Below are positions 5,640-23,537 of a stretch of DNA of 32,757 nucleotides, in pieces (position 1 is the stretch's first letter; the number at the start of each line of letters is the position of its first letter). The position numbers were made by a program, and so were the translations under genes. The notes under the pieces were generated by a model. It ran no database searches. It saw nothing but the letters and a program-made list of their open reading frames with translations, and was not told where the DNA came from. The stretch comes from Prosthecobacter debontii (lineage in GTDB: Bacteria; Verrucomicrobiota; Verrucomicrobiia; Verrucomicrobiales; Akkermansiaceae), in NCBI GenBank assembly GCA_945869855.1, contig CAMBQC010000010.1:1-32757 (forward strand). The letters are read 5' to 3'.

Positions 5640-5659
5640 ACACACCGTCCTTTTAAGAG

Positions 5660-5880
5660 CGTTTGCCCATTCGCGTCAATTTAAGGTGTAAGTCCGCAGC
5701 CTCGTTGATATAGCGATGATCGTTTGCGCTTACATCGCCTAATATGCTTGGGATATATCGGTATTTCTGACTTCAAGCTTCGCAATATGCGGAGTCACCC
5801 CGATAGCCATGTGTAGAGTTTTTCCGCGCTGATCTCTATGCGAGGTTTCCACTTTTTAAATTGACGCGAATGGGCAAACG
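5660..5880. repeat. Inverted-repeat element A (221 bp, 25-bp perfect ends)
   Basis: Bases 5660-5684 are the exact reverse complement of 5856-5880 (25 of 25), enclosing 171 bp of AT-richer sequence with no open frame. Inside are further pairings: CCTCG near the left end with CGAGG near the right, GCGATG with CATCGC around 5712-5737, and a local hairpin at 5778-5794 (CTTCGCA, loop ATA, TGCGGAG). As RNA or single-stranded DNA it would fold into one long branched hairpin. It begins 20 bp after the phosphofructokinase stop. No target-site duplication is obvious. Its ends (GTTTGCC inward, GGTCTA just outside on the right) resemble the element at 19902-20136. A non-autonomous mobile element or a large bidirectional terminator are the main readings. 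Confidence 0.8.
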
Positions 5881-6018
5881 GTCTAGTCCATTATGTTGTA
5901 ATGGTAATATTTCTGGCCCACCCCCGCTTTTTCAGGAGCCATGGGGCGCGGTTGCGTGAATGCCGCCTGAAAGCCGAGGTCGAGGAAGCCGGTAAGAGAA
6001 ATTAGGGAGAACGCAGCG
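5881..6018. other. Intergenic stretch with a small hairpin
   Basis: Holds a perfect 6-bp hairpin at 5888-5904 (CCATTA, loop TGTTG, TAATGG). A short plus-strand frame near 5940-6003 reads ARLRECRLKAEVEEAG, possibly the tail of a vanished gene, but it cannot be assigned. Nothing else is recognised. Confidence 0.3.
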
Positions 6019-14907: not shown

Positions 14908-15339
14908 TTAGGGCACGCGGAAATACTTTTTCTCGGAGGCCGGGTAGGTGGGATCTTGAACAAGCGTGCCGCTGGGGATGTCGCGGACATCTACGAGCTT
15001 GTTGTTATACGGGCTGAAAACGAAGCCTTCTTTGCCGGGAACGGGATTCGCGAAGGAGTAATCGCTGCGGGGCTTCTCGACGGGCTTGTCGGGCGTTGTG
15101 GTGGTGGTGGTGGTCTCAGGAGTTTCCTTCGGAACGTCCGTGGTCGCTTCGGTTTTCAACTTCTCCTCATTCTCCTTCATCCGGTCACGCTGCTCCTGGA
15201 TCTTTTGCTGATCCTGGCTGGTGACGGTTTCGACCTCTGTGGGAGGCTTCGTCCCGCGCGTTTTGTCGGGGATTTGGTAGCATGATGCGAAGGCAAGGCA
15301 GCCGATGAGCGGGAGGCTGAGAAGAAACTTGGATTTCAT
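14908..15339 (-). CDS. Small Thr-rich lipoprotein
   Basis: A 143-residue exported protein of unknown function. MKSKFLLSLPLIG then CLAFASC is a lipoprotein signal; the Cys with Ala-Ser before it would be lipidated, though Phe at -3 is not ideal. The mature part has a charged, probably coiled segment (QDQQKIQEQRDRMKENEEK), a Thr/Pro linker with six consecutive Thr, and a C-terminal module containing GKEGFVFSPYNNK, VDVRDIPSG and KYFRVP, which I recall as recurrent in Verrucomicrobia proteins. ATG chosen because the signal peptide starts there; upstream frame is shadow. Its transcript probably ends at the hairpin before tyrA. Confidence 0.75.
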   Translation of the reverse strand: MKSKFLLSLPLIGCLAFASCYQIPDKTRGTKPPTEVETVTSQDQQKIQEQRDRMKENEEKLKTEATTDVPKETPETTTTTTTPDKPVEKPRSDYSFANPVPGKEGFVFSPYNNKLVDVRDIPSGTLVQDPTYPASEKKYFRVP

Positions 15340-15597
15340 GGCGGTGATTGGGGTTCGGAACTTTAACGGCACGGGAACCGGGAGAAACGCCGTGCGCCAC
15401 TCAGTAAAGGCGGGTAGCGCGCTCCCGTCAAGCGGGGTCGTTATGCGGAAACAGGAAAAACGGCTCCGTCCAGAAGGGTAGGGTGGTGGGTGGGGTTTTG
15501 TCTGATGGCCGCGCACCATCGGCTCGGTTTTCGGCCGCCAATGGTTCGCAGAAATCCTCCTTCCCCTGCGCGCCCGTTCCTGTTAGCTGGTTTTCAA

Positions 15598-16338
15598 ATG
15601 CGGAAAACAGGCGATTTCCCAACCCGATTCCAGCGCATCGCGGTCTGGAAATCAGCGCTCGCGACCGAGTTCCGCGTGGCGGGGGCGATCCACGCCTCCT
15701 ATCACGAGAAACGTTTCCTGACCGGACTCGCGTGGGATTTGCTCGCTGCTGCGGCCATGCTGCGCCCCTCCGGAAAGCCCGCCTCCATCCTCATGCTCGG
15801 CGTGGCGGGCGGCACGGCATTGCGCACCCTGCACCACCTTTTGCCGGAGGCTTCCCTGACGGGCATCGACCTCGACGCGGAACTCATCGCCCTTGCGGAA
15901 AAGGAGATGCACCTCGGCGAAACGGGCGCGGAGATTGTCATCGCCGATGCCTATGAATGGATGAAACAGAACAAGCGCCGTTTCGACGTGATCATCGACG
16001 ACCTCTACCTCGCCGGGGATGAGGATGTTTTCCGTGCGGATACCTGCGACGCCGACTGGCTCGGCCTACTGAAAAACTCCCTCGCGCCCGGCGGCCTCCT
16101 CGCGCTGAACCTCGTCACTGGCCCCGGCCACCGCGCGAAGCAATCCGCCACCCGGAAAAACCTCGCCGCCCGCTTCCCCTGCGTCCGCGCGCTCAGCACC
16201 GAGGAAAGCCTCAACGAAATCCTCGTCGCAGGCGATGATGTCGCAACCGGCTCGCGGCTCGAATCGCACACCGTCTCTTTCGCCGACTGGCGCGACCGCA
16301 TGTTCTGGAAACGCATCAAGGTGCAGAAATTGAAGTGA
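15598..16338 (+). CDS. Spermidine-synthase-like methyltransferase-fold protein
   Basis: A 246-residue Rossmann-fold protein of the spermidine synthase/SAM-methyltransferase superfamily. The binding loop reads LMLGVAGGTALR, followed by the acidic strand end GIDLDAELIALA, the next motif IADAYEWMK and FDVIIDDLYLAGDEDVF, where the Asp pair corresponds to the polyamine synthase active site. No true spermidine-synthase N-terminal beta domain is seen, so the amine substrate is uncertain and a role in spermidine synthesis is not claimed. Start at ATG before RKTGDFP; the longer frame upstream lacks protein-like character. A 46-bp gap with an AT-rich palindrome separates it from rarA, probably co-directional transcription. 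Confidence 0.78.
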   Translation: MRKTGDFPTRFQRIAVWKSALATEFRVAGAIHASYHEKRFLTGLAWDLLAAAAMLRPSGKPASILMLGVAGGTALRTLHHLLPEASLTGIDLDAELIALAEKEMHLGETGAEIVIADAYEWMKQNKRRFDVIIDDLYLAGDEDVFRADTCDADWLGLLKNSLAPGGLLALNLVTGPGHRAKQSATRKNLAARFPCVRALSTEESLNEILVAGDDVATGSRLESHTVSFADWRDRMFWKRIKVQKLK

Positions 16339-18625: not shown

Positions 18626-18759
18626 AGGACGGCAACGTGCGGGGCTTGCGGGATCTTGCAGCCGGGATCGACCTTTCCAAGCAAAAGCCCCGGCTTGTGG
18701 ACGACGAAAAACCAGCCCCCGTGAAGACGTAAGCCATTGTGCCGCTCAACCCCCGACAG

Positions 18760-19848
18760 ATGATGAAAACGAACCGCCACTCCAGGCTCGCGTCTCACCG
18801 GATCCCCGCTTTGCTTCTCGCAGCGATCACTTTGCCCTTTTTCACCATGACGATGCATGCCGAAGAGAAACAGCCCGCCGCGTTCCGCACGGCTCTGGTC
18901 TATGATGACATTTTCCTCAAGCACGACACCGGCCCCGGCTTCCCCGAAAGCGCGGACCGACTGCACATGATGACAAAGCACCTCAAAGCGCATCCGGTTT
19001 CCGAAAAACTGCTCCGGATGGAGCCGGACGACAAGATCGACCCGATGCCGTGGATCCTCGAAATGCATGAGGAGGAATATGTGAAGGAGCTAAAGCGCGC
19101 CTGCGAGGCCGCCGAGGGTGTAACTCGCCTCGGCGCGGACAACCCGATCTCGCCACATACTTACGACGTCGCAGTGAAAGCCGTGACCGCTTGCCTAACC
19201 GCGGTGGATGCAGTGATGGCGGGGCGCGTGAATAACGCCTTCGCCGCCGTGCGCCCGCCGGGGCACCATGCGATGCCGGACCGCGCCAAGGGCTTCTGCT
19301 TTTTCGGCAACGCCGCGATCGCCGCCCGCTACGCCCAGAAACACCACAAGCTGGAGCGCGTGATGATCGTCGATTGGGACGTGCACCACGGCGATGGCAC
19401 ACAGGAAATGTTTCTCAAAGATCCAACCGTGTTCTTTTTCTCCACTCACCAATATCCCTTCTACCCCGGGCTAAGCGGCTCACCGGACATCATCGGCGAG
19501 GGCGCGGGCAAGGGTTTCAACCAGAACGTGCCGCTCTCTCCAGGCGGCGGCGACGAGGCGGTGCTCAAGGTTTTCAGGACGACGCTGACCGAGGCCTTCC
19601 GGAAATTCAAACCGCAGATGCTCATCATTTCCGCCGGCTTCGATGCCCACGAAGCCGACCCGCTCGGCGGGCTCGGATGGTCGAGCGATTGCTACGCCGA
19701 ACTCACTGGTATCCTGCGCGCCCTCTGCCGCGAGCAAGGCCACGAACGCATCGTTTCCCTGCTCGAAGGCGGCTACAGCGAACGCGGGATCACGGAAGGA
19801 GTCCGCCGCCACATCGAGGCGCTTGAGGCTCCGGCTGAGAAACCGTGA
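18760..19848 (+). CDS. Histone-deacetylase-family hydrolase with export signal
   Basis: Zn-dependent amidohydrolase of the HDAC/acetylpolyamine deacetylase superfamily. All key motifs are present: RPPGHHA (165-171), VDWDVHHGDGTQ with Zn ligands D207 and H209, STHQYPFYPG, SAGFDAHEADPLGG with the third ligand D300, and LEGGY at the end. The class II-like core starts at residue 43. Before it lies a basic segment and hydrophobic helix (IPALLLAAITLPFFTMTMHA) that looks like a signal peptide cleaved near MHA-EE, predicting a periplasmic enzyme, which is unusual. Start is one of two adjacent ATGs (18760/18763); an upstream GTG at 18739 is possible. Substrate unknown: acetylated polyamines or sugars are plausible. 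Confidence 0.88.
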   Translation: MMKTNRHSRLASHRIPALLLAAITLPFFTMTMHAEEKQPAAFRTALVYDDIFLKHDTGPGFPESADRLHMMTKHLKAHPVSEKLLRMEPDDKIDPMPWILEMHEEEYVKELKRACEAAEGVTRLGADNPISPHTYDVAVKAVTACLTAVDAVMAGRVNNAFAAVRPPGHHAMPDRAKGFCFFGNAAIAARYAQKHHKLERVMIVDWDVHHGDGTQEMFLKDPTVFFFSTHQYPFYPGLSGSPDIIGEGAGKGFNQNVPLSPGGGDEAVLKVFRTTLTEAFRKFKPQMLIISAGFDAHEADPLGGLGWSSDCYAELTGILRALCREQGHERIVSLLEGGYSERGITEGVRRHIEALEAPAEKP

Positions 19849-19901
19849 CTCGGAAATCCTAAAGAGGAAAACGAACCACGAATCCGACTTCACCGCCTAT
19901 C

Positions 19902-20136
19902 CCGTTTGCCAAAAGTCCGTGCGCAAAACTGTGACAACAAAGTAGAGTGCGCCGCAGGCTCTGGACTGCTGTGATTCTTCATTCAAAGCTCTCAAGGGCT
20001 GCTTTGTTTTACGGGACGAAGGGTTGCTACGGGATACTTCGTTTTTCCATCGCGAACCCAAAAAGCGGCAGATGAGAACCGCCGCAGTCAAAAGCCTCCG
20101 GCGGCATGGATCTGCGCACGGACTTTTGGCAGACGG
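19902..20136. repeat. Inverted-repeat element B (235 bp)
   Basis: Bases 19902-19925 pair with 20113-20136 at 23 of 24 positions (19 perfect at 19907-19925 and 20113-20131). A second, inner pair of arms near 19950-19980 and 20070-20105 is complementary at roughly three quarters of 28 positions (GGCTCTGGACTGC against GCAGTCAAAAGCC), so the whole element can fold as one long imperfect hairpin. It fills the gap between the convergent deacetylase and dprA genes. Ends match element A: GTTTGCC on the left, and GGTCTA just outside the right end in both. No open frame inside; no clear target duplication. Confidence 0.75.
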
Positions 20137-20169
20137 TCTAAAAATCGCAAATTCAGCCCCCTTCCCTTC

Positions 20170-21273
20170 TTACCTCCGACTGAACCGAAAACCCGGCAAC
20201 GGGCGGACGAGGCGGCGGAGTTCGAGTTTGAAAAGGGCGGCGGTAACGACGGATGAGGGCAGGCCGCTGTGCTGGATGAGGGCGTCGATGGACATCTCGT
20301 CGCCGGCAGGCATGGCGGCGAGGACGGCGGCTTCTTCGGGCGGGATTTCGGGTTCGTCGCGAGTTTCCGTGAGGGGTAGTTCGTTGCTGCGGGCGAAGGG
20401 CAGATCGCCCATGTCGTCGATGATGTGGGAGGCGTCGGAGACGAGGGTGGCGCCATCGCGGATGAGCTGGTTGCAGCCGACGGAGGAGGGTTTGTCGATA
20501 GGACCGGGGACGGCGAAAATGGGCTTGCCGTAATCGGAGGCGAGGTTTGCGGTGATGAGTGAGCCGGACCAGGCGGGGCACTCGGTGACGAGCAGAGCTT
20601 GGCACCACGCGGCGACGATGCGGTTGCGCATGGGGAAGGTCTGCTTGTCGGGCTCCCGGTGCAGAGGAAACTCGGAAATCACCGCGCCGTTGCCATCGGC
20701 GATCTTTTGCGCGAGGGCCAGGTTTTCCGGCGGGTAGAGCCGCGCCAAACCGGAGCCGACGACCGCGATGGTGCGGCCTTTCGCGGCGAGCGCCGCCTCA
20801 TGCGCGGCGGTATCGATGCCGCGGGCGAGGCCGGAGACGATGGTGAAACCGGCGTGGGCGAGTTGGTAAGTCAACTTGCGGGTGGCGTTGACGCCGTAGG
20901 TCGTGGCGCGGCGCGAACCTACGACGCTGATGGCGTGGCGGTCGCGGGCGGTGATTTCCCCCCAGACATAAAGCAGGATGGGCGCGTCGTAGGCCTGGAG
21001 CAGGTGCTTCGGATAGGAAGTATCCTCGCGGGTGATGATGGCGATGCCGCGCTCCACTGCCTCGGCGAGTTCCTTCGCGGGATCGACGTAATCCTGCCAA
21101 GAGGAGATGAGCTTCGCGGTCTCCGGGCCGATGCCTTCCACGCGCAGCAAGCTCTTCGCCGGGGCGGAAAGGACGCTCTCGGCATCGCCGAAAGCCTCAA
21201 GCAGCCGCGTGATGCGGACGGGACCGAACGAAGGCAGGAGGTTGAGAGCGAGGATGGCTTCGCGGGGGGACAT
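20170..21273 (-). CDS. dprA: DNA-processing protein DprA
   Basis: Single-stranded-DNA-binding RecA loader of natural transformation. The 367 residues contain an N-terminal helix-hairpin-helix/SAM-like part (LLRVEGIGPETAK), the Rossmann-like core with VVGSRRA (117-123), SGLARGID (147-154), FPMRNRI (213-219), GSLITA (237-242) and VPGPIDKPSSVGCNQLIRDGA, and a C-terminal winged helix (about 300-367) of the DprA_WH type. Length and motifs are complete. Presence suggests the organism can be or was competent. The start ATG lies 45 bp from the stop of the gene encoding the Pro-Glu repeat protein, which is upstream on the same strand, with a hairpin between. Confidence 0.94.
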   Translation of the reverse strand: MSPREAILALNLLPSFGPVRITRLLEAFGDAESVLSAPAKSLLRVEGIGPETAKLISSWQDYVDPAKELAEAVERGIAIITREDTSYPKHLLQAYDAPILLYVWGEITARDRHAISVVGSRRATTYGVNATRKLTYQLAHAGFTIVSGLARGIDTAAHEAALAAKGRTIAVVGSGLARLYPPENLALAQKIADGNGAVISEFPLHREPDKQTFPMRNRIVAAWCQALLVTECPAWSGSLITANLASDYGKPIFAVPGPIDKPSSVGCNQLIRDGATLVSDASHIIDDMGDLPFARSNELPLTETRDEPEIPPEEAAVLAAMPAGDEMSIDALIQHSGLPSSVVTAALFKLELRRLVRPLPGFRFSRR

Positions 21274-23362: not shown

Positions 23363-23381
23363 TCAAGACTTGGAATGCTAA

Positions 23382-23506
23382 AGCCTGCTGTAGCTTTCCG
23401 CGAGACAGCCTGCAGTCAGCGGCGGAGGATCGGAAGCGTACGTATTGCAAGATGCCAATGCCGTCGGGTCGCAGCAGGGCTGCGTAACCGAAAGCTACAG
23501 CAGGCT
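23382..23506. repeat. Inverted repeat C (125 bp, 17-bp perfect arms)
   Basis: AGCCTGCTGTAGCTTTC (23382-23398) is exactly complementary to 23490-23506. Inside, CAGCCTGCAGTCAGCGGCGG on the left is partly complementary to the segment before the right arm (CGTCGGGTCGCAGCAGGGCTG), so a long imperfect hairpin forms. It fills the gap between the convergent lpxB and ftsH stops and could terminate both. Its ends differ from elements A and B. Confidence 0.75.
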
Positions 23507-23537
23507 GCAGCAGTCCATAGCCTTCGGTGAAAATACC

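Follow-up and report, generated by a model that had tools for sequence, protein, structure and literature searches.

Element B, the second of two long inverted repeats with related ends in a 32,757-nt stretch of Prosthecobacter debontii DNA (the window), is very probably a non-autonomous IS630 (Tc1/mariner-type) MITE with a captured palindrome, and element A, the first, is very probably an IS231-type insertion into IS630-type ends. The ends of good copies of B agree at 25-26 of 26 positions with those of IS630-family insertion sequences, and empty sites of a sibling MITE and, more weakly, of one B-family copy retain a single TA, and it is therefore as a non-autonomous IS630 MITE that we interpret it. 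According to this interpretation, a full-length insertion sequence with the same ends would supply an IS630-family (Tc1/mariner superfamily) DDE transposase that recognizes TAGACCGTTTGCCAAAAGTCCGTGCG, and this enzyme would move B and insert it at TA, so that a TA flanks it at either end. The interior would be an older palindromic repeat of the GGACTGC class, separate in origin, that was captured once between IS630 ends, and the resulting chimera of ends and palindrome would then have been amplified as a unit in the genus.

Structure, borders and copies of element B

The original prediction described a long inverted repeat at 19902-20136 with arms complementary at 23 of 24 positions, and this structure proved to be real. 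Its two 24-nt arms, at 19902-19925 and 20113-20136, are 96% complementary and enclose a 187-nt spacer, and the single-stranded element folds at -109.6 kcal/mol, whereas shuffled sequences average -76.6 (z = -7.36; 0 of 200 shuffles as good). It is also a dispersed repeat, and therefore no chance hairpin. The element is wholly intergenic, lying between a gene for a histone-deacetylase-like protein and a convergent dprA gene, and its 243 bp contain no open reading frame of at least 80 aa (Table 1).

Table 1. Features of elements A and B and of the genes flanking B, in window coordinates.
Feature	Position	Strand	Remarks
MITE B, complete, TA to TA	19898..20140	.	243 bp; from copy alignment, similarity stops at TA on both sides
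B left terminal inverted repeat, TATCCCGTTTGCCAAAAGTCCGTGCGCA; consensus TAGACCGTTTGCCAAAAGTCCGTGCGCA	19898..19925	+	consensus identical to genus IS630 ends
B right terminal inverted repeat, TAGACCGTCTGCCAAAAGTCCGTGCGCA read inward on the - strand	20113..20140	-
B captured palindromic interior, GGACTGC...GCAGTC, BIME-like	19949..20104	.	stand-alone copies elsewhere
Flanking gene, histone-deacetylase-like protein	18739..19848	+	Pfam Hist_deacetyl, E 8.8e-92; ends 49 bp before B
Flanking gene dprA, convergent	20170..21273	-	Pfam DNA_processg_A, E 5.4e-75; ends 29 bp after B
Element A, IS4/IS231-type deletion derivative	5655..5885	.	IS part 5668-5872
IS630-type terminal repeats flanking A	5655-5667, 5873-5885

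The borders of B were set by comparing its copies. In oriented alignments, similarity within the B family starts and stops at TA: T occupies the first inside position in 20 of 20 ends of B-size elements and A the second in 95%, and the first 28 bases from the TA inward are 70-100% conserved in these 20 ends, compared with a mean of 38% outside, close to what the commonest base would reach in columns of unrelated sequence. As had been noted, A and B both have GTTTGCC at the left and GGTCTA at the right, but the copy-defined borders (19898 and 20140) place GGTCTA within B and not outside it. The ends had also been described as asymmetrical; this is decay, because the left end of the window copy has drifted (TATCCCG instead of TAGACCG), and better copies have TAGACCGTTTGCCAAAAGTCCGTGCGCA at both ends.

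A search of the source genome (1.96 Mb, 136 contigs, ∼80% complete) with the element recovered four further near-full copies (94, 91, 90 and 88% identical), making five, together with two partial copies and many end fragments; the copies sit in unrelated flanks. The proposed scan for paired ends found no match to the exact pattern in this genome, because the copies vary in length and the ends of B are mutated, and it was the search with the whole element that yielded more copies. B had matches in 11 of 99 genomes, the source genome among them; all 11 belong to one genus, and 38 searched genomes of other families in the order had none. Copies are thus carried by further species of this genus (Akkermansiaceae; the public relatives are Luteolibacter-like MAGs), and genome G102 alone gave 36 matches to window positions 19200-20700, nearly all over B. 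A degenerate end pattern detected 17 stretches in 84,980 species genomes searched, in records titled Luteolibacter, Akkermansiaceae, Akkermansia muciniphila and Prosthecobacter debontii.

MITEs with common TAGACCGTTTGCCAAAA ends fall into size classes of 123-124, 163, 205, 212 and 243-247 bp. A 212-bp MITE abuts a B-family copy on contig C9 of genome G050 (L030:1283-1500), the two having one TA in common, so that one was inserted at the other's edge. Minimal fused ends, consisting of two terminal repeats without an interior, were also seen (L175:2047, L216:2552, L217:2472 and L201:2540); they read TAGACCGTTTGCCAAACGGTCTA (23 bp) in G044 and G053, with a single change in one G053 copy, and TAGACCGTTTGCCGGCAATCGGTCTA (26 bp) in G005, and are possibly deletion scars or the smallest members. 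In G060 (contig C4; L187:1073-2200), an array of ∼200-bp tandem units adjoins a TAGACCGTTTGCC end, and these units resemble the flank of a G044 MITE.

IS630 partner elements and empty sites

The TA ends of B suggested an IS630/Tc1-mariner element. In good copies of B both ends read TAGACCGTTTGCCAAAAGTCCGTGCG, and IS630-family insertion sequences of this genus have ends that are identical to these at 25-26 of 26 positions. Matches at 26 of 26 positions lie directly past the C-terminus of an IS630 transposase in G053 (contig C6), in contig-end copies in G014, where the same end occurs in six, and in a deleted insertion sequence of 584 bp in G009, and a match at 25 of 26 adjoins a 265-aa fragment of an IS630 transposase in G109 (NF033545, E 4.5e-32). 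Genus-wide, IS630 elements terminate in TAGACCGTTTGCCAAAA, after which their sequences vary, and one subset is identical to the end of B over 26 bases. In the source genome there are IS630 remnants whose ends are related (21/26) and, on contig C21, a DDE_3 transposase remnant between related ends; this genome is ∼80% complete, its assembly breaks at these repeats, and an intact IS630 transposase gene was not seen in it. As is expected of an IS630 MITE, B is short and non-coding and has several copies in unrelated flanks.

TA is present on the left in 22 of 24 non-redundant elements and on the right in 22 of 24, and its duplication on insertion was evident from empty sites. When the flanks of a 124-bp MITE in G044 (contig C16), which has the same outer end as B, are joined at a single TA, they match uninterrupted sequence in G053 (98%) and in the source genome (91%). 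A 247-bp B-family copy in G102 (contig C17) has an empty counterpart on contig C48 of the source genome (86% over 148 bp, ungapped), and this site supports the same conclusion more weakly than that of the 124-bp sibling, since 24 bp of the match lie to the left of the junction and the sequence around it may itself be a repeat. The joined-flank search covered 3166 of 3630 query bases; it took in a small part of the final two loci, and one of these was compared separately. These findings support the suggestion in the original prediction that B may be moved in trans, and mobilization by an IS630 transposase, which we infer, is well supported.

The search for insertion polymorphism was successful in part. 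The orthologous gene pair in G053 and G005 lacks B, with ∼240 bp less between the genes, but the intergenic sequences there are too diverged for the junction of the window copy to be placed to the base. This absence from the same gene pair in two relatives also argues against the idea that B has been retained for a function, as a bidirectional terminator or RNA structure. Its position between convergent stop codons, its strong fold and its four terminator-like sites, compared with 1.0 in shuffles, would suit such a role; however, copies of B lie in unrelated flanks and an Rfam search of the window gave no match, and we consider the idea quite improbable.

As a MITE of the IS630 type, B appears closest in kind to RUP, the repeat unit of pneumococcus, a 107-bp element with IS630-Spn1-like ends for which mobilization in trans has been proposed (PMC3049150). 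Both are short non-autonomous hairpins that have terminal inverted repeats and a target duplication, and whose ends resemble those of an IS630-like element in the same host. Unlike RUP, B belongs to another phylum, is 243 bp long and has a captured palindrome as its interior, and its ends were found independently; the likeness is one of description. The Nezha MITEs of cyanobacteria, proposed to be mobilized by ISNpu3-like elements with similar ends (PMC3049150), provide a further pairing of MITE and insertion sequence, again likened by description, since host and sequence differ. RUP, BOX and SPRITE elements are reported to insert into one another (PMC10969869). In the literature searched, no paper named Luteolibacter or Akkermansiaceae together with MITEs or insertion sequences, and B therefore apparently represents a new family of MITEs whose helper can be identified. 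The family is new in its host, and the kind of object, an IS630 MITE, is an ordinary one.

The palindromic interior and a RAYT-like gene

Copies of the interior that stand alone, with no IS630 ends, are present in G032, G016 and G014, and are 71-75% identical to positions 19949-20104. The nested imperfect arms of B, correctly described from the outset, are explained by the palindrome that this interior repeat itself possesses (CGCCGCAGGCTTTGGACTGC...GCAGTCCAAAGCCTCCGGCGG). On contig C3 of the source genome, a gene for a RAYT-like protein of 178 aa (15424-15960) has an identical hairpin repeat of ∼135 bp on either side, in direct orientation, the two copies beginning at 15277 and 15999 (region 15277-16140, L309), and these repeats have 17 identical nucleotides in common with the interior of B (GGCTTTTGACTGCGGCG).

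The two-arm palindrome with its stand-alone copies, and the hairpins around this gene, are what might be expected if B were a REP/BIME element spread by RAYT, a Y1 HUH nuclease, and copying by a REP-type endonuclease had been suggested. For B as a whole this is the least credible of the alternatives: the borders of its copies are formed by TA and IS630 ends, rather than by the limits of the interior, and these ends, the TA empty sites and the matching insertion sequences point to a DDE transposase. The RAYT-like protein also scores 68.7 against NF047646 (E 4.8e-19), below the curated cut-off of 80, and we therefore treat it as a lead and not as a classification. What survives of the suggestion is that a REP/RAYT-like layer, judged by sequence, may exist only in the captured interior of B.

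REP/BIME elements and TIR repeats occur with RAYT/TIRYT genes (PMC3733652), and the interior of B is likewise a palindromic dimer, as is a third long inverted repeat in the window, at 23371-23517. This last repeat belongs to another class (TGGACTGCTACAGCCTGCTGTAGC...GCAGTCCA), with related copies on contigs C117 and C48 of the source genome (L017, L019). As in REP/RAYT systems, the RAYT-like gene on contig C3 is flanked by a palindromic repeat; unlike in those systems, no GTAG or CGTC tag was seen, and whole ∼135-bp hairpins flank the gene as direct copies.

Element A and an IS231-type insertion sequence

The left 200 bp of element A match, at 87%, a full insertion sequence in G014 (contig C64) that encodes a 438-aa IS4-family transposase (NF033592). 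The tips of this IS4/IS231-type element, which are also the true tips of A, read CATTCGCGTCAATTTAAG. Other copies in G014 begin CATTCGCG and have a perfect 10-bp repeat on either side, namely GGCATACGGT on contigs C71 and C46 and GGCAAACGGT on contigs C123 and C90, the contigs being paired by their matching repeats because they break inside the insertion sequence. The second duplication lies inside TTTTGGCAAACGGTCTA, an IS630-type end. Members of the IS231 subgroup of the IS4 family have ends of the form CAT-------AA--TAA and 10-12 bp repeats (PMC2266710), and the full-length G014 elements agree with the subgroup in their ends (CATTCGCGTCAATTTAAG), in the YREK motif (YRQRWEIEIHFRAWK) and in their 10-bp duplications. 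Element A in the window has the IS231-type ends only, and no direct duplication. Plasmid IS4 relatives, at only ∼25% identity, were uninformative on ends. In G009 (contig C52; L225:2495), an ISAs1-family transposase (NF033564) begins ∼100 bp behind a TAGACCGTTTGCC/CATTCGCGTCAATTTAAG end, and two transposase families, ISAs1 and IS4-type, are thus found behind this 31-bp end.

Exact copies of the outer 13-bp motif were found in 17 of 73 genomes of the genus, with 6-12 each in the source genome, G044 and G014 and 0 in a reversed-pattern control, and coincidence was rejected. The motif is present at both ends of both A and B, and in G014 it lies on both sides of the full-length IS4-type element on contig C64, so that an IS630 transposase might move the whole unit. 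It could be argued from this, as the original prediction did, that A and B form one family whose GTTTGCC/GGTCTA ends are recognized by one enzyme and whose cargo varies. However, both 10-bp duplications in G014 directly abut the tip CATTCGCGTCAATTTAAG, one of them at a site without a complete motif, and this tip fits the published IS231-subgroup end. A single end family for A and B was rejected, since the duplications abut CATTCG; the one-family reading is already largely refuted by them, and we regard it as very improbable. Conserved ends with variable interiors do describe the mobile family to which B belongs, but not A and B together.

We favor instead the reading that A resembles B only because IS630-type ends are the sites into which an IS231-type element inserts, with a 10-bp duplication. 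Judged in this way, GTTTGCC/GGTCTA is target DNA in A and the element's own terminus in B. Both A and the element on contig C64 of G014 have outward-facing IS630-type ends on both flanks and no direct repeat, and A may have come to lie between two such ends by recombination between two copies that had inserted at the opposite ends of one MITE, which would produce exactly this arrangement. A hot spot for IS231A lies in the terminal repeats of Tn4430. Unlike in the case of IS231A, the element here appears to prefer the ends of an IS630/MITE family as its target, so that a second parasite marks the ends of the first.

It is also conceivable, although unlikely, that in this Akkermansiaceae genus one short element serves as substrate for three unrelated machineries, its shell for an IS630 transposase, its palindrome for a RAYT-type nuclease and its ends as landing sites for an IS231-type element. 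If this were true, element A and the G014 contig C64 units would have become IS630-mobile composites. According to the favored reading, the two repeats have common ends for different reasons, which would be a trap for repeat annotation based on ends alone, and their nested layers would make the insertion of element into element directly readable.
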